In this document: one piece after another, positions 19,853 to 29,888 of the stretch
Layout of the letters: each line of letters starts with the position of its first letter
How positions within the stretch are numbered: the first letter of the stretch is position 1
Assembly (NCBI GenBank): GCA_020053475.1
Contig: JAGVNC010000055.1
Span: 1-32,621 of the forward strand
Direction: 5' to 3'
Origin: Candidatus Omnitrophota bacterium
GTDB lineage: Bacteria; Omnitrophota; Gorgyraeia; Zapsychrales; Zapsychraceae
Length of the DNA stretch: 32,621 nt
Notes under the pieces: generated by a model
Databases searched by the model: none
Told to the model about the DNA's origin: nothing
Seen by the model: the letters and a program-made list of their open reading frames with translations, nothing else
Position numbers and translations under genes: made by a program

Positions 19853-20746
19853 TTAAACAAGTAAACCAGATCCGTGTCGGATTCCAAATGTTTTTCCTAA
19901 AAATGTTCCTAAAAGAAACGTCGCTGCTGCCGTCAACAGCATTAAAATTGTTGTTTCGAGGAATTCTCGTAAGAATTTTTTATCAAACACGATAGCGCTA
20001 TAAAATGTCAAAAGAGCAATGAGCCCCATGCCTACGCCAATAGACAATGTAAAGGCGTACCCCATATTTTGCGTCAAAAAGTAAGGCACGGCCAGCAGAA
20101 TGACAGAAGCAATATAGGAAATGGTTGTCGCAATGGCTGAAACCCACGGAGACCGGTGGCTGCTTTCCTGTTTGGCTTGCAGGTAAGCGGCTGACCCCAT
20201 GGAAATGGCCGCGGAAAACCCGACGATAAGCCCGGAGATCCCGGCAAATAGCGTCGAGTTTGTGACGCCCAGGAATCCCGCATGCACCCCCGTAATCTCC
20301 ACAATAGCGTCCGCTAGCCCCAGGGCGATAAACCCGATATATTGAATGACGGTTTCTTGGACTTGGCCAATAAAGAAGTTTTCGTGTTCTTTCTCATCGC
20401 GGATAATTTCTTCCAGCTGGGTTTTCTCGTCCCCGGATAATGTCTCCAGCACCCTCTCATATTCTTTAACGACAATATGCTCGTGGCGCTCCAGGAATTT
20501 AATGGTGAACGTTAACCCTGTCAGCCGGCGCAGCAAACGAAAACGCAAAAGAAAGAATTGGCCCACGTCAGGCTCGTAATCCGGCATCATTTTTTTCCAA
20601 AATAGATAATGGAGATGCTCTTGGTCGGAGAGTTTAATAAGGATGGATTTGTTGTGAGGGTTCTTTTCCCGGGAAGCCAAGTCTTTGTACAAAAGACAGT
20701 CAGCGTACTCATCAAAGATATATTCTTTTATTCTGATGTTTTTCAT
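19853..20746 (-). CDS. ferritin-like / VIT1 iron exporter fusion
   Basis: A 297-residue protein with an N-terminal ferritin-like (rubrerythrin) domain (about 1-130). It shows the paired carboxylate/histidine helices of a diiron site, such as DQEHLHYLF and the later RDEKEHENFF. The C-terminal VIT1/CCC1 domain (about 135-290) has five hydrophobic segments and the GLADAIVEITGVHAGF and GFSAAISMGSAAYLQ motifs. Proteins of this architecture (MbfA/erythrin-vacuolar iron transporter type) export iron under iron load. Its near-consensus promoter and a hairpin over the ribosome binding site suggest independent control. It complements the Fe(II) uptake operon nearby. Confidence 0.88.
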   Translation of the reverse strand: MKNIRIKEYIFDEYADCLLYKDLASREKNPHNKSILIKLSDQEHLHYLFWKKMMPDYEPDVGQFFLLRFRLLRRLTGLTFTIKFLERHEHIVVKEYERVLETLSGDEKTQLEEIIRDEKEHENFFIGQVQETVIQYIGFIALGLADAIVEITGVHAGFLGVTNSTLFAGISGLIVGFSAAISMGSAAYLQAKQESSHRSPWVSAIATTISYIASVILLAVPYFLTQNMGYAFTLSIGVGMGLIALLTFYSAIVFDKKFLREFLETTILMLLTAAATFLLGTFLGKTFGIRHGSGLLV

Positions 20747-23898: not shown

Positions 23899-26800
23899 CT
23901 ACAAATAAATATCGACAATTAACGGAAGATGATCAGAGGCAATTTTATCCATCCCTGTACGAGATACTTCAACATTTTTTACTTTGATGCCGGGGCTTAA
24001 GAACACATGATCGAGTCGTCCCACAGGATAATGGCTAAACCATGTTGCCTTTGAAGAAACTTTTTCAGCGCTACTGACCGCATCACATAAAGGCCCTTTC
24101 ATCTGGCGGCACAAAAAAGAATTCGGCAGGGCATTAAAATCCCCACAGAGGACAAGAGGTTTTGCGCAGGCTGAATGCCCAATCCATTCTTTCCCTAATA
24201 AAGTCTTGGCTTGTTTGACCCCTTCGGGTGGGAAAAAACTTAAATGCGTGTTAATGAATTGAAGCTCAATGTCCCCAATACTAATCGCGGTCCAGATGAC
24301 GCCTCGTGCTTCCCATCGAGGATTCTTAAATAGGCTTGGCAAGCGCCCCGCCCTAATTAATTCCATCGGATAACGGCTTAGAATCGCTGTTCCATATTGT
24401 TCTTCAGCCACACGGATCAACGGATGGAAATGATAGAGCATTTCCAATTGTTTGGCAATGCGATGCGGTTGATCGATTCCTTTGGTTCGCGGCCGTTGAA
24501 GATCCAGCTCTTGTAACGCCACAATGTCGGGTTCATGGCGGCCGATGACGCGGGCAATCCGTTCGACGGATATTTTGCCATCCATGCCGATACAGCTATG
24601 CACATTGTATGTCATGATACGGATCGTTTCAGGTTTTTTAAATGGAGGAGTCAATATAAACGGAAATTCAGGCGGAAGTTCATGGCGGTTGAGAAAACGT
24701 AACGCGAGTTGACGCAAATCAATGGGGCGTAGATAAGGCCGCCTTTCTTTGGCTTTAACGATATCCGATGGAAGTAACGTAAATCCTTGGGTTTCCAGCG
24801 GGCCCACTCCTCCATGCGCCCCTCGCTCAATAGGAAAGGAGATTAAGGGGCCATTTTTTTGCCATCCCAAGAATGTGAACGTCCCTCCGGCAGGATGACG
24901 GCAGAGTCGAATGAGATCATCGATCACTTGCCGGTAAAAAGGATGGGATTCATCAAATACTTTTTCCCCGTCATCGGGAAGAAGAAATTCACCTTGCGCA
25001 TTCCAAACACGCGCTTTATCTTCTCCTTCAGGGGTCACAACAATCGGGATTTTGGCTGTGCGGACTAATTCCTGGGCAAATTGTCTTTTTTGTCCATCGG
25101 ATAATTTTTCATGAATATAAATATTGCCGGTAGGGCCGATGGTTGTCACAATGATTTTTTCTTCGGCTAAATCCCTGACTAAATCATCAATGGGCAAGAA
25201 TTTTTTGAACCATCTTACTCCCATGTATTGGACGCGTTGCGCCTGAATGCCCCGTTGTTCTTGTTGAGAGTAAACATTGGCTTTGGGGTTCAAGTCTTTA
25301 AAGACTTCGGTGATGGCCTCTTGAACGGGCCGCCCGTATTTCATGGGATAAGAAATGACTTCTTCTTGCCCATGGTCGGAATAGATCCAGACATCATAAT
25401 TACGCCGGCTAGACCGTAAAGCTTTGTGATAAATTTTTTTAATGGCATTATCAATGCCCTTTAATGACCAATGGGCCAAGAAGGATGACGGCCCGCGATG
25501 GTGGGCTTGCTCGTCATAACCTAAAAAATTCATATGGATAATCGGCAATCCTCGGGCAATATCAATTTTCGCCCCCAATGTGATTAATTCGCGTAGCAAT
25601 ATGCAAATCGAAACACGCAGAGGGATAAATGTTAATTCTTTTTTAAAATTTTGTTTTTTGAATAGTCCGTAAAGAAAATCAATGATGCTCAAGAGGAATT
25701 CCAGGGCCATTAAAAATAGAATCCGCAGGAATTTCATAAAATGAGTCAACACAAACAAACAAAAATTAAAAGGATTAACATCTTTCCAAAGATGCTGCCA
25801 TCCTAGAACGCTCGCGCAAAAATGGGCTTCTTTTGCCCCTCCCCTGTAAACATTAGAATAAGAGCTCCCTCCTTCTAATAGCGGGGGGTTGTGATGGGCG
25901 GCCAATCGTCGTTCAATTTCGATAGCATCTTCGCCATCAAATAAGCGGAAAATTTTTGAGGATGGCGGATCCCAAAAGGAAAACGCAGGCACAATTTGCT
26001 TAACGCCGTAGAATAATTCGCCTTGGACCGAAGGCGTACTCGACGGAAGCCCGGCAAAAAGAGGGTGTGTTTGGTATCCTTCCTTGTTTAATAAAGAAGA
26101 CAAAAAGGGCATTTCCCCTTTTTCTAGCGTTGACTTAAATTCCTTCAAACTAAACCCATCAATTTGGATCATGACTAACCCCGGCTCTGTATTCGCCTCT
26201 TCGGATTTTGATAATCCCAAAAGGCCCACCGTCCATTCCCACTGGCTCAACCATCGGCGTAAACGCAAAAGCCAATTGTCTTTATAAATTGGGATCGTTG
26301 GACTTGTTAGGGGTTTATCACCAACAACAGCCGCGTTACTTGCTTGATCCGTTAGCGGTTTATCGTTGATAACGGCAGCACTGCTTGCCTGGACGACATT
26401 TTTAAACATGTCCCATTCTGTTTTAATCCGGGACATGAGTGTATACCAGGCACTGTCAGGACGATCTCGGGACACGTATTCCAACGAACAAACATTTTTG
26501 TAGGTGCCCAGCAGATGTTGGACAGAGTCTTCAATCTTAAATTTTTGGGACGTTTGACGAGCCGCTTCTTTTAATTTTTTAAATTCAGAGTCGGATAGAT
26601 GGATGATCCAGGATAATGCTTCAGTAAATAATTCTTGGCTGGGGTTAAGTAACAACCGGCCATTGTCATAATCGACGACAACTTCTCGCGCCCCGGGGGC
26701 ATCGAGGGCAACCACAGGGACACCCGCCGCCATCGCTTCGACCAGGACTATCCCTTGCGTTTCACTCAAAGAAGTAAAGGCAAAAATGTCCATGGCATGA

Positions 26801-27624
26801 TAAGCATCCACGAGATCTTGACCCTGCAAAACACCGGCAAAATGCAAACGATGCGTGAGGCGGTGGGTCTCGAAAGTTTTTTTGATCATTTCTTCACAAG
26901 AACCTCTCCCAATGACGAGAAAATGGGCCCGGAGTTCTTTTTTCAACAGTGCCGCAACGCTTTCGACAAGAAATTCAAGATTTTTTTCAGGTTCCAAGCG
27001 GCCGACGGTGCCGATGACAAACGCGTTGGCCGGAATCAAGAATCGTTGACGGATGATATCCCCTTCCCCCGCCTTAAAGCGTTTAATGTGGATCCCTGTT
27101 GGGATCACTTCCATCGGTGTTTGGACTCCCCGCTCTAGGAGAATATCACGCACGCTTTCGCTAGGGACGATGACTTGATGGCTGAGGTTGGCGTATCCGG
27201 CGGCTAACTCGATCACAAAACGTTTGACTGCGTCATTGTGGATCGGCAGATAATGAACATATTGTTCGTACATGGTGTGATACGTAAAGATCAATGGGAT
27301 GCGGTATTGCCCGCATAATCTTAAGGCCAAATCTCCCATTAAAAAAGGATGATGGCTATGCACAATTTCAGGCTTAAATTTTTTCATTAGCGTGGATAAA
27401 ATGCCTGGCATCGGCAAGTTAACGGAAAAATCGGTTTGATTAAAATTTTGAATCGCCGGGAGGCGAATGACGCCTTCCTCGAACGGGGGTGATCCTGCCA
27501 TTTCAGGAGCCGCGATGATAACCGAATGGCCTTTCCCCCGGAGTTGGTTGGTAAAAGAGCGAATGGATTCCTCGATGCCTCCAACGATCGGCGTGTATGT
27601 ATTGGTCAGCATAAGGATTCTCAT
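23899..27624 (-). CDS. GT4 glycosyltransferase / alkaline-phosphatase-superfamily / EEP phosphatase fusion
   Basis: A 1241-residue single frame with three enzyme domains. Domain 1 (1-390) is a GT4 glycosyltransferase; TNTYTPIVGGIEESI, FTYHTMYEQYVHYLP and the E288-E296 (EX7E) motif resemble diacylglycerol glucosyltransferases. A linker (about 410-442) holds a tandem 15-residue repeat. Domain 2 (about 480-960) is an alkaline-phosphatase-superfamily phosphodiesterase with every metal ligand in place: D489, T530, D704, H708, D750-H751, H937. It contains hydrophobic segments (about 625-690) that may anchor it. Domain 3 (1002-1241) is an endonuclease/exonuclease/phosphatase domain with N1007, E1039, D1162/N1164 and D1231-H1232. 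No frameshift or repeat suggests an artefact. The ATG overlaps the previous stop as ATGA. Substrates unknown; lipid or envelope glycan phosphates are likely. Confidence 0.85.
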   Translation of the reverse strand: MRILMLTNTYTPIVGGIEESIRSFTNQLRGKGHSVIIAAPEMAGSPPFEEGVIRLPAIQNFNQTDFSVNLPMPGILSTLMKKFKPEIVHSHHPFLMGDLALRLCGQYRIPLIFTYHTMYEQYVHYLPIHNDAVKRFVIELAAGYANLSHQVIVPSESVRDILLERGVQTPMEVIPTGIHIKRFKAGEGDIIRQRFLIPANAFVIGTVGRLEPEKNLEFLVESVAALLKKELRAHFLVIGRGSCEEMIKKTFETHRLTHRLHFAGVLQGQDLVDAYHAMDIFAFTSLSETQGIVLVEAMAAGVPVVALDAPGAREVVVDYDNGRLLLNPSQELFTEALSWIIHLSDSEFKKLKEAARQTSQKFKIEDSVQHLLGTYKNVCSLEYVSRDRPDSAWYTLMSRIKTEWDMFKNVVQASSAAVINDKPLTDQASNAAVVGDKPLTSPTIPIYKDNWLLRLRRWLSQWEWTVGLLGLSKSEEANTEPGLVMIQIDGFSLKEFKSTLEKGEMPFLSSLLNKEGYQTHPLFAGLPSSTPSVQGELFYGVKQIVPAFSFWDPPSSKIFRLFDGEDAIEIERRLAAHHNPPLLEGGSSYSNVYRGGAKEAHFCASVLGWQHLWKDVNPFNFCLFVLTHFMKFLRILFLMALEFLLSIIDFLYGLFKKQNFKKELTFIPLRVSICILLRELITLGAKIDIARGLPIIHMNFLGYDEQAHHRGPSSFLAHWSLKGIDNAIKKIYHKALRSSRRNYDVWIYSDHGQEEVISYPMKYGRPVQEAITEVFKDLNPKANVYSQQEQRGIQAQRVQYMGVRWFKKFLPIDDLVRDLAEEKIIVTTIGPTGNIYIHEKLSDGQKRQFAQELVRTAKIPIVVTPEGEDKARVWNAQGEFLLPDDGEKVFDESHPFYRQVIDDLIRLCRHPAGGTFTFLGWQKNGPLISFPIERGAHGGVGPLETQGFTLLPSDIVKAKERRPYLRPIDLRQLALRFLNRHELPPEFPFILTPPFKKPETIRIMTYNVHSCIGMDGKISVERIARVIGRHEPDIVALQELDLQRPRTKGIDQPHRIAKQLEMLYHFHPLIRVAEEQYGTAILSRYPMELIRAGRLPSLFKNPRWEARGVIWTAISIGDIELQFINTHLSFFPPEGVKQAKTLLGKEWIGHSACAKPLVLCGDFNALPNSFLCRQMKGPLCDAVSSAEKVSSKATWFSHYPVGRLDHVFLSPGIKVKNVEVSRTGMDKIASDHLPLIVDIYL
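26306..26391 (-). repeat. imperfect 45-bp tandem repeat in the fusion linker
   Basis: Two copies starting at 26306 and 26351 share GTTAG-GGTTTATC...-CTTG at a 45-bp period. They encode two versions of a 15-residue unit (AS-S/N-AAV-x-x-DKPLT), joining the glycosyltransferase to the phosphatase-like domain. Confidence 0.7.
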
Positions 27625-29888
27625 GGCGTGTCCTTATATTTTATTTCAGCGATATTTGTGTTTGGGGTTGCTGAATAACTGGAATATCCAGGGAATTGAA
27701 TATCGATTGGGGGTTGACCGGAAAACCATTTGCCTTCCCACGTCACTTTAATCGTATCGTCGTGAGGGACGACCGTTACTTTAATGTCTCCAAATTTTGT
27801 CGCCGTAAATCCAAAGACCATCGGCGATTTTTCATGTAACCAATTTTCAGGGATCCCTGAGCATAAAATTAATCGATCACTTTCTTCTCGGACAAAACAG
27901 CTGCGGATCATCAAAATCCATTCAGCCGCGGCCCATACATGTTGGCCATCGCCCATGCATCCACCGCCAGTCCTCGGATGGATGGCTTCCGGCCATTGAC
28001 CTGTCGACGTTGCCAATTTAGCAACCGCGGCCATCAAATCAAAATAGCGTCTATCGCCAGCACGTAAAAGGACCTGCGCGATATGTAGCGTTAAGTAAGG
28101 ATTGATTCCTGAATGCGTCATGTCATGGAAAAATGCGCCATTAATAAATCGATTTTCTAAAAGAAAGTTGGTTGTGTCTAAAAGACGGGTATCGTTTTTA
28201 GAGAAAATTTGTAAAGGATATCCGCACACGATTGATCCAATGGCCCCTCCATCCATGCGCCGATAGGGTGATGCTGGCATTGCGGGCCGCCCCAGTCGTT
28301 TCGCTGTTTGCCCAAGACTTTGTTCAATCGATCGAGCAAGGTCATTGCTTTCATTGAAAAAATTGTTGGCTTTTTGTTTGTCCCCATATTGTTCTAATAA
28401 ATGTCCGGCCGCATTTAATCCCGCTACGGCCCAAAAGTCATCCCAGTAATAATAATCGTTGGGGCCAAAATGTTCGGCGCTGAATCCCGATGGAAGTAAT
28501 CCGGCATGAATTGATTGAGATTCTTTGGAAGTGCGTTTTTTACAAAGCCAGCGGGCTGCTTTATCAATGGAATTTTTCCATTCAGCGGGCGGGGCTTCCT
28601 TAGTCAATTCGCAAAACCGATGCATAATCCAAAGGGACTCTCCATTCGAGTCCCATTCCCCTTCCTGGGAAAGAAAATATCCTTGCTTGGTTTGACGGGA
28701 CCGGAAGTAACTCAATGTTCGGCGAGAGCGATCTTTTAGCCCTACAGATAGCATGGCATGAATAATAAAAGCGGCATCGCGAAACCAAAATCGCCGGTAC
28801 GTGTAGGGGCCGGGATAAACCTCTTTGGGAGAATGGAGGAGGACCGTCCGCACAGCGATTTCAAAAAGAGATTGAAAGTGTTTGTTGGGGATGCTTAATT
28901 GACTGATCTTCTCCAGGTTTTTCTTCCAGGCTTGGTTCGCTAGTTGATCTTGATCGAGAGAAGCACGTTGGGGGTGTTCTTTTTTTAAAGGGACATCAAT
29001 AACAATCTTGTGGGACTTTCCTTTTTCTAATTTGTAGAAAGCCGCGGCTGTTGCCATTCCAACGTGGCAGGAAATATTTGATTTGTTTTCGACAGCCGCC
29101 AATCGGCTAAAAACATCTCCATGGCGATAATAAGAAAATTCGCATCGATCGGGAGTTGTGTCCCAATAAACAGGTTGGTTTTTATTGACCTGCCAGCCTT
29201 TGCGATCATCAAGCAAAGCGATGTCATGAATAAAGCTGACTCCCTCAGGATTGTAAGGCCGCAGAGATACCACAAGCCATGCTTCGACATCAGCTTGGGC
29301 CGTCACTTCGATTGTGCAATGCGGGGACTCAGGTGTGCCGATAACTTGAACGTTCGATCGAAGAGATAAATGATCCCGTTTAGTACCTGTGATAACGCAT
29401 AGATTGTCGTTGTAGGTAATTGTTTGATCCACGGAAGGCGATTGGGACGGGATTAAATGTTTCCCGTCGTTAACGATAATCCAGCTATCGATGGACCAAC
29501 CATCATAGAGGGGCGTAACCAGCCCTCGAGGATCAACGATCGGATATTCCTCACAGTCGGGAATCCCGACGGCTGTCCAGTTACGGTGCGTCAAATTAAT
29601 TTGGGTTAACGAAAAGGAGCGGGGGATAAACGCATCATCACTGGGATCATATTGGCGATTGACCCAATAGGGCCACACCCAATCTAAATTGTGCTGGATG
29701 GCTTGGCTATTCATGAGCCCGCGCGCGTGAAGGATGACACCCGAGCGTAATAATTCTGTGGGGGCGGCGACTTCTGATGGCTGGGCAAAATTCTGAAGCT
29801 GAGATAAAATCTTGATAGGATCTAAAAATCCGTGACTGCGGGCAAAATGCTTAACGGTAAATCTCCAAGGGAACCATTTTAACCACAT
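27621..29888 (-). CDS. six-hairpin glycosidase-like protein
   Basis: A 755-residue protein without signal peptide. The N-terminal half (about 1-320) looks beta-rich; the C-terminal half is an (alpha/alpha)6-barrel, with YRRFWFRDAAFIIHAML around D371, DYYYWDDFWAVAGLNAAG and WPEAIHPRTGGGCMGDGQHVWAAAEW around E634. These acidic motifs and the GGGCMGDGQHVWAAAEW ending are the layout of glycogen-debranching/GH15-type glycosidases. Specificity is not known. It heads the operon, and its stop overlaps the start of the 1241-residue fusion (ATGA). The ribosome binding site is AAAGG, 7 nt before ATG. Confidence 0.75.
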   Translation of the reverse strand: MWLKWFPWRFTVKHFARSHGFLDPIKILSQLQNFAQPSEVAAPTELLRSGVILHARGLMNSQAIQHNLDWVWPYWVNRQYDPSDDAFIPRSFSLTQINLTHRNWTAVGIPDCEEYPIVDPRGLVTPLYDGWSIDSWIIVNDGKHLIPSQSPSVDQTITYNDNLCVITGTKRDHLSLRSNVQVIGTPESPHCTIEVTAQADVEAWLVVSLRPYNPEGVSFIHDIALLDDRKGWQVNKNQPVYWDTTPDRCEFSYYRHGDVFSRLAAVENKSNISCHVGMATAAAFYKLEKGKSHKIVIDVPLKKEHPQRASLDQDQLANQAWKKNLEKISQLSIPNKHFQSLFEIAVRTVLLHSPKEVYPGPYTYRRFWFRDAAFIIHAMLSVGLKDRSRRTLSYFRSRQTKQGYFLSQEGEWDSNGESLWIMHRFCELTKEAPPAEWKNSIDKAARWLCKKRTSKESQSIHAGLLPSGFSAEHFGPNDYYYWDDFWAVAGLNAAGHLLEQYGDKQKANNFFNESNDLARSIEQSLGQTAKRLGRPAMPASPYRRMDGGAIGSIVCGYPLQIFSKNDTRLLDTTNFLLENRFINGAFFHDMTHSGINPYLTLHIAQVLLRAGDRRYFDLMAAVAKLATSTGQWPEAIHPRTGGGCMGDGQHVWAAAEWILMIRSCFVREESDRLILCSGIPENWLHEKSPMVFGFTATKFGDIKVTVVPHDDTIKVTWEGKWFSGQPPIDIQFPGYSSYSATPNTNIAEIKYKDTP

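Follow-up and report, generated by a model that had tools for sequence, protein, structure and literature searches.

In the present study, a single gene of a Candidatus Omnitrophota bacterium was found to encode three enzymes in one polypeptide, namely a GT4 glycosyltransferase, an NPP-type phosphodiesterase of the alkaline phosphatase (ALP) superfamily and an EEP domain. We propose, with about an even chance of being correct, that this fusion is a membrane-bound, cytoplasm-facing three-enzyme protein of a glycolipid operon, in which head-group removal is coupled to lipid glycosylation. The fusion is specific to one lineage and unites two genes that lie side by side in a widespread operon; the domains are each already known, the phosphodiesterase-EEP pair being a common protein of approximately 800 aa, and the more interesting finding is the widespread operon rather than the fusion by itself. 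The positions of the features in the window, that is, the whole stretch of 32,621 nucleotides that was analysed, are given in Table 1.

Table 1. Features of the fusion gene and its upstream partner in the window
Feature	Positions	Strand	Basis
Whole fusion gene, GT4 - NPP-type phosphodiesterase (ALP superfamily) - EEP	23899..27624	minus	ORF, translation, Pfam, 12 further genomes with this domain order
GT4 glycosyltransferase domain, residues 1-380; EX7E = E288/E296	26485..27624	minus	Pfam 14-357, nearest named family, invariant E288/E296
Linker and basic amphipathic stretch, residues 441-475	26200..26304	minus	Alignment; N-termini of free phosphodiesterase-EEP proteins
NPP-type phosphodiesterase domain (ALP superfamily), residues 476-985; D489, T530, D704, H708, D750, H751, H937	24670..26199	minus	Pfam, model, Foldseek, ligands
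Helical hairpin (residues 618-691) inside the phosphodiesterase, hydrophobic in its first helix	25552..25773	minus	Two long model helices, hydropathy
EEP domain, residues 990-1241	23902..24657	minus	Exo_endo_phos and PGAP2IP C-terminal nuclease-like Pfam, Foldseek, YbhP kinship
Upstream partner GHx, 755 aa, clan GH-L-like glycosidase	27621..29888	minus	Model and Foldseek, GT4 neighbour in nearly all relatives

The frame is real and runs for 1241 aa from an ATG on the minus strand, a strand that the preliminary description of this DNA had left unstated when it proposed the frame. The proposal made there, that three intact enzyme domains reside in one real protein, is borne out by the agreement of Pfam, AlphaFold/Foldseek and conserved residues. 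The domain search that had been suggested recovers GT4, Phosphodiest and Exo_endo_phos in the translation, and the active-site residues that had been named, i.e. those of the GT4 and phosphodiesterase domains listed in Table 1 together with N1007, E1039, D1162, N1164, D1231 and H1232 of the EEP domain, are invariant in alignments of up to 19 homologues. Both the residue conservation and the domain matches are far above chance. In the GT4 domain, Pfam places the two halves at residues 14-182 (E 9e-33) and 190-357 (E 1.7e-34), and both GT-B halves exceed their cut-offs (Glyco_transf_4, 114 bits vs 28.5; Glycos_transf_1, 119 bits vs 26.4), with the EX7E pair unchanged in every aligned row that has a GT4 domain. 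Enzymes of the GT4 family form alpha-linkages. The best NCBIfam match is alpha-monoglucosyldiacylglycerol synthase (NF049988, span 1-377, E 1e-39), but the score of 137 bits falls below the equivalog cut-off of 400, and the domain is therefore a relative rather than a member of this family. The earlier characterization of a diacylglycerol-glucosyltransferase-like head is thus supported as far as the nearest model is concerned, though far below its cut-off.

The remainder of the protein was modelled jointly as residues 441-1240 with AlphaFold (mean pLDDT 79.5, pTM 0.84), and this phosphodiesterase-EEP model served as the Foldseek query, so that the EEP matches dominate the resulting list. The best of these are EEP enzymes (4ruw, E 2e-16; TDP2), whereas the phosphodiesterase part matches phosphonoacetate hydrolase (1ei6, E 6.6e-12, TM 0.59 by target). 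By sequence, Pfam Phosphodiest (PF01663) aligns to the core alone of the phosphodiesterase, at residues 700-766 (E 1.5e-6, 28.5 bits vs a cut-off of 23), and of 91 homologues, 90-91 retain the threonine nucleophile together with the six metal ligands (D, D, H, D, H, H). The EEP domain is matched by Exo_endo_phos at 1004-1232 (E 5.9e-22, 78.9 bits vs a cut-off of 24.5) and, also above the cut-off, by the PGAP2IP C-terminal nuclease-like domain, which belongs to GPI-lipid remodelling; it shares 27% identity with YbhP of Escherichia coli.

The arrangement of the phosphodiesterase domain bears on the location of all three active sites. The preliminary description had noted an internal hydrophobic stretch, and hydropathy analysis confirms one at residues 619-656, conserved in 99% of homologues and corresponding to the first of the two hairpin helices (178-215 and 220-251 in the numbering of the model). 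This hairpin, which is predicted to enter the membrane, sits between the nucleophile T530 and the metal ligand D704. Because these residues must meet in a single active site, both ends of the hairpin should lie on the same membrane face, and because the GT4 requires a cytoplasmic nucleotide sugar, the phosphodiesterase and EEP domains should be cytoplasmic too. Neither a signal peptide nor an N-terminal transmembrane segment was detected in the proteins inspected (free phosphodiesterase-EEP, 58; GT4, 50; GHx, 49). As deduced from sequence and model, all three active sites should thus face the cytoplasm at the membrane. An extracellular or envelope trimming role was rejected on the grounds of this topology, i.e. 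of proteins without signal peptides and a hairpin between active-site residues; the earlier suggestion that an envelope glycan phosphate is trimmed was not sustained, since the phosphodiesterase and EEP lack an export signal and should lie on the cytoplasmic side with the GT4, which argues against an external glycan as target.

The complete GT4-phosphodiesterase-EEP frame was detected in 12 further Omnitrophota genomes representing 11 further genera, and in a scan of public genomes the named records carrying the fusion were those of Candidatus Omnitrophota. These relatives are approximately 47-69% identical by domain, and the genomes come from many independent projects. A tree built from the phosphodiesterase domain places every fused protein within one clade of 19 (support 100/99), and FastTree on 91 sequences recovers the same clade (99) with at most four changes of state; consequently, the fusion probably arose once, and judging from these trees the simplest history is one fusion followed by a few splits. 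That the frame is an artefact of assembly or reading frame joining separate genes might be suspected from the separation of these genes in most other organisms and from one genome in which a single TAG interrupts the frame between GT4 and phosphodiesterase. However, the frame is open and uninterrupted in 12 further, independent genomes and the fused proteins form one strongly supported clade, which leaves this explanation practically out of the question, and the search for homologues with the same domain order, which had been named as a check, revealed no loss of a catalytic residue.

Outside the fusion clade, the phosphodiesterase-EEP is a free protein encoded after a separate GT4 gene, and its N-terminus corresponds by alignment to the linker region of the fusion. 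The genome scan yielded 235 places, of which 80 loci were read. The operon comprises, in order, a VTT/DedA membrane protein, a GH15-like glycosidase (GHx), GT4 and phosphodiesterase-EEP, with genes that often overlap by 4 nt, and it was found in Proteobacteria, Desulfobacterota, Nitrospinota and Planctomycetes, including cultured strains, e.g. Thiobacillus denitrificans RG and Microbulbifer. Among the loci with enough upstream sequence (17 from Omnitrophota and 36 others), GT4 was present within 6 kb in 16/17 and 32/36, respectively, and GHx within 6 kb in 15/17 and 29/36. The VTT/DedA protein accompanied 25 of the 36 loci outside Omnitrophota, usually in the third position upstream; in the window it is not beside the fused gene, and one copy lies elsewhere in the genome. 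Here the stop of GHx overlaps the start of the fusion by 4 nt (27621-27624). The downstream phosphoribosyltransferase and the upstream PKD gene were considered as partners and rejected, being absent beside the relatives examined. Since the phosphodiesterase-EEP is the usual two-domain unit of a widespread operon, it is the operon, rather than the fusion protein alone, that constitutes the functional unit.

GHx has no Pfam or NCBIfam match above the cut-off. Its model (pLDDT 84) shows an (alpha/alpha)6 barrel with an N-terminal beta-sandwich, as in GH15 and clan GH-L, and the structural matches include GH15 glucodextranase 1ug9 and glucoamylase 1lf6, with the overall fold matched at E 5e-18, as well as a glucosylglycerol phosphorylase, indicating a GH15/GH65/GH94-like fold. 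Two invariant glutamates in the alignment, E472 and E634, are candidate catalytic carboxylates. An alpha-linking GT4 and a partner of GH15-type fold are a consistent pair.

Genes of lipid metabolism recur around these operons. One locus runs from GHx through a PlsC-ACP acyltransferase and a protein of 238 aa to the fused gene, and PlsC-ACP lies between GHx and GT4 in four loci. In one genus, the gene after the phosphodiesterase-EEP encodes a CDP-alcohol phosphatidyltransferase, and at one locus such a gene is found nearby. Where the phosphodiesterase is missing, a lone EEP adjoins a true cardiolipin synthase in three loci (449-459 bits vs a cut-off of 290), in two of which GHx, VTT and GT4 belong to the run as well; at one other locus, a cardiolipin-synthase-like gene precedes the phosphodiesterase-EEP. 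The same pairing of EEP and cardiolipin synthase occurs in the E. coli operon ybhP-clsB-ybhN. In some relatives, the GT4 is fused to an alpha/beta hydrolase instead, and the GT4 of these operons is repeatedly paired with hydrolases or phospholipid enzymes. These neighbours and substitutes support lipid substrates for the operon and, together with the nearest family of the GT4 and the VTT protein, uphold the link to membrane lipids that had been suggested.

Herein, we propose a mechanism in which the substrates are inferred throughout. At the inner leaflet, the phosphodiesterase and EEP domains would strip a phospholipid of its phospho-head group, either in the manner of phospholipase C or by phosphotransfer, and the phosphate would be cleared. 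The fused GT4 would then glycosylate the leftover lipid, for which diacylglycerol is the most likely acceptor, giving an alpha-glucosyl lipid. Removal or trimming of the alpha-linked sugar might fall to the GH15-like GHx, and transport of the lipid to the other side of the membrane to the VTT/DedA protein of the operon. In the fusion, head-group removal and glycosylation would be kept together.

Several observations count against the proposed lipid reading: the best solved relative of the GT4 domain is MshA (3c4q), which makes GlcNAc-inositol-phosphate with a soluble inositol phosphate as the acceptor, the EEP and NPP families have many substrates, including nucleotides, and the VTT gene does not adjoin the fusion in the window. 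Owing to the kinship with MshA, the main rival is a soluble glycoside pathway, in which the GT4 would make a phosphorylated glycoside, the phosphatase domain would dephosphorylate it and the GH15-like enzyme would degrade the product. A glycosyltransferase, a phosphatase and an (alpha/alpha)6 glycosidase are a known arrangement in compatible-solute synthesis, and the fold of the partner, with glucosylglycerol phosphorylase among its matches, would suit such a pathway. However, the conserved hydrophobic hairpin, the basic amphipathic N-terminus and the VTT partner, as well as the cardiolipin synthase, PlsC-ACP and CDP-alcohol transferase neighbours, point to the membrane, and we regard a soluble pathway as unlikely.

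The lipid context is shared by a rather unlikely alternative in which the phosphodiesterase would use T530 to transfer the phospho-head group of a phospholipid to the sugar on the GT4-made glycolipid, while the EEP would edit the result. Such a transfer would be the cytoplasmic counterpart of LtaS/EptA chemistry. In its threonine nucleophile and two-metal set, the domain resembles the transferases of the superfamily, and diacylglycerol would be both by-product and acceptor, recycled by the GT4; nevertheless, the known transferases of this type are periplasmic and belong to the sulfatase-type branch, whereas the present domain is of the Phosphodiest/NPP type and on the cytoplasmic side. A role of the NPP-type domain and EEP in clearing UDP-sugar or nucleoside diphosphate by hydrolysis, so as to pull or regulate the GT4, is very improbable. 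Nucleotides are indeed substrates of NPP enzymes, and the sequences matched weakly in the PDB are nucleotide pyrophosphatases (2gsn, E 0.005), but such a role would need no membrane hairpin and would leave the replacement by, or linkage to, cardiolipin synthase unexplained.

For the proposed coupling of head-group removal to glycosylation, a working precedent exists in PlcP-Agt remodelling, in which a phosphoesterase yielding diacylglycerol is encoded beside the glycosyltransferase that glycosylates it (PMC4796936). In the present operon, an NPP-type domain and EEP stand in the place of PlcP and are fused to the GT4, a GH15-like enzyme and VTT are additional, and no metallophosphoesterase family, the calcineurin-type family of PlcP included, occurs among the Pfam matches of the fusion or its neighbours. 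Control by the phosphate-starvation regulon was considered and found unsupported, there being no excess of Pho boxes before the operons: in a simple consensus scan, a weak negative for non-proteobacteria, the best matches were mostly no better than those of random windows. The operon is thus not a simple copy of phosphate-starvation remodelling. Compared with alpha-monoglucosyldiacylglycerol synthase and PimA/PimB', the GT4 shares fold and EX7E motif but is fused to, or co-operonic with, phosphoesterases. The phosphodiesterase resembles the NPP branch in its threonine nucleophile, complete two-metal ligand set and fold, and differs in aligning by sequence at the core only, in the inserted hydrophobic hairpin, in its deduced cytoplasmic location and in the fusion to EEP. 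The E. coli operon ybhP-clsB-ybhN contains an EEP relative next to cardiolipin synthase, a neighbour that the free EEP also has in relatives of this genome, but has no GT4, GH15-like gene or NPP-type phosphodiesterase. GHx shares the overall predicted fold of GH15 and clan GH-L, but has neither family match nor signal peptide and has a fixed GT4 partner.

More tentatively, one polypeptide may turn phospholipid into glycolipid at the cytoplasmic face, with its ALP-superfamily domain held in the membrane by the internal hairpin, and the widespread, undescribed VTT-GH15like-GT4-phosphodiesterase/EEP operon may be a second, unrelated solution to PlcP-type remodelling without a tie to phosphate starvation; we consider this broader hypothesis possible rather than probable. 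No description of the fusion or the operon was found in the open-access literature searched, which does not prove its absence. Because the operon is present in cultured strains, the pathway can be tested directly by deletion and lipidomics. The results also provide a lead for YbhP, the EEP protein encoded next to the gene for cardiolipin synthase B of E. coli, as well as for the unclassified family of GH15-like glycosidases. If the proposed mechanism is true, an unrecognised membrane-glycolipid pathway would operate in many sediment and groundwater bacteria, methanotrophs, Thiobacillus and Microbulbifer, and the Omnitrophota fusion would reveal which of its steps are coupled.

The frame of the fusion, the 1241-aa GT4 - NPP-type phosphodiesterase - EEP protein, is broken in one relative (L002/L045 of genome G020), where one TAG separates GT4 from the phosphodiesterase; this break reflects either a recent split or a sequencing error. 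In four other loci (L021-L024), the same GT4 carries a C-terminal extension (703-754 aa), assigned by Pfam in L022 to an alpha/beta hydrolase, and the genomes of these loci are devoid of the phosphodiesterase. A true cardiolipin synthase adjoins a free EEP in L032, L033, L035, and L152, as in the ybhP-clsB pair of E. coli; in L032 and L033, both genes share one run with GHx (the partner gene upstream of the fusion), the membrane protein VTT, and GT4. Two loci labelled Halobacteria archaeon (L139) and Chloroflexi (L095) group within proteobacterial/desulfuromonad clades, and are therefore probably misbinned contigs. Moreover, open frames of 8,000 to 26,531 aa were observed in the phylum (G017, G037, G043, and G000:C27), and one of 9,346 aa is present in the window's own genome.

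Features of the window beside the fusion
Feature	Position	Strand	Length	Pfam family
GHx, GH15-like	27621-29888	-	755 aa	none
Rubrerythrin-like domain and VIT1-type transporter domain in one protein	19853-20746	-		

In L027, L072, and L074, all from one relative genus, a homologue of the rubrerythrin-like/VIT1-type protein lies immediately upstream of GHx. GHx is conserved across several phyla (47-63% identity) and is a candidate new glycosidase family.
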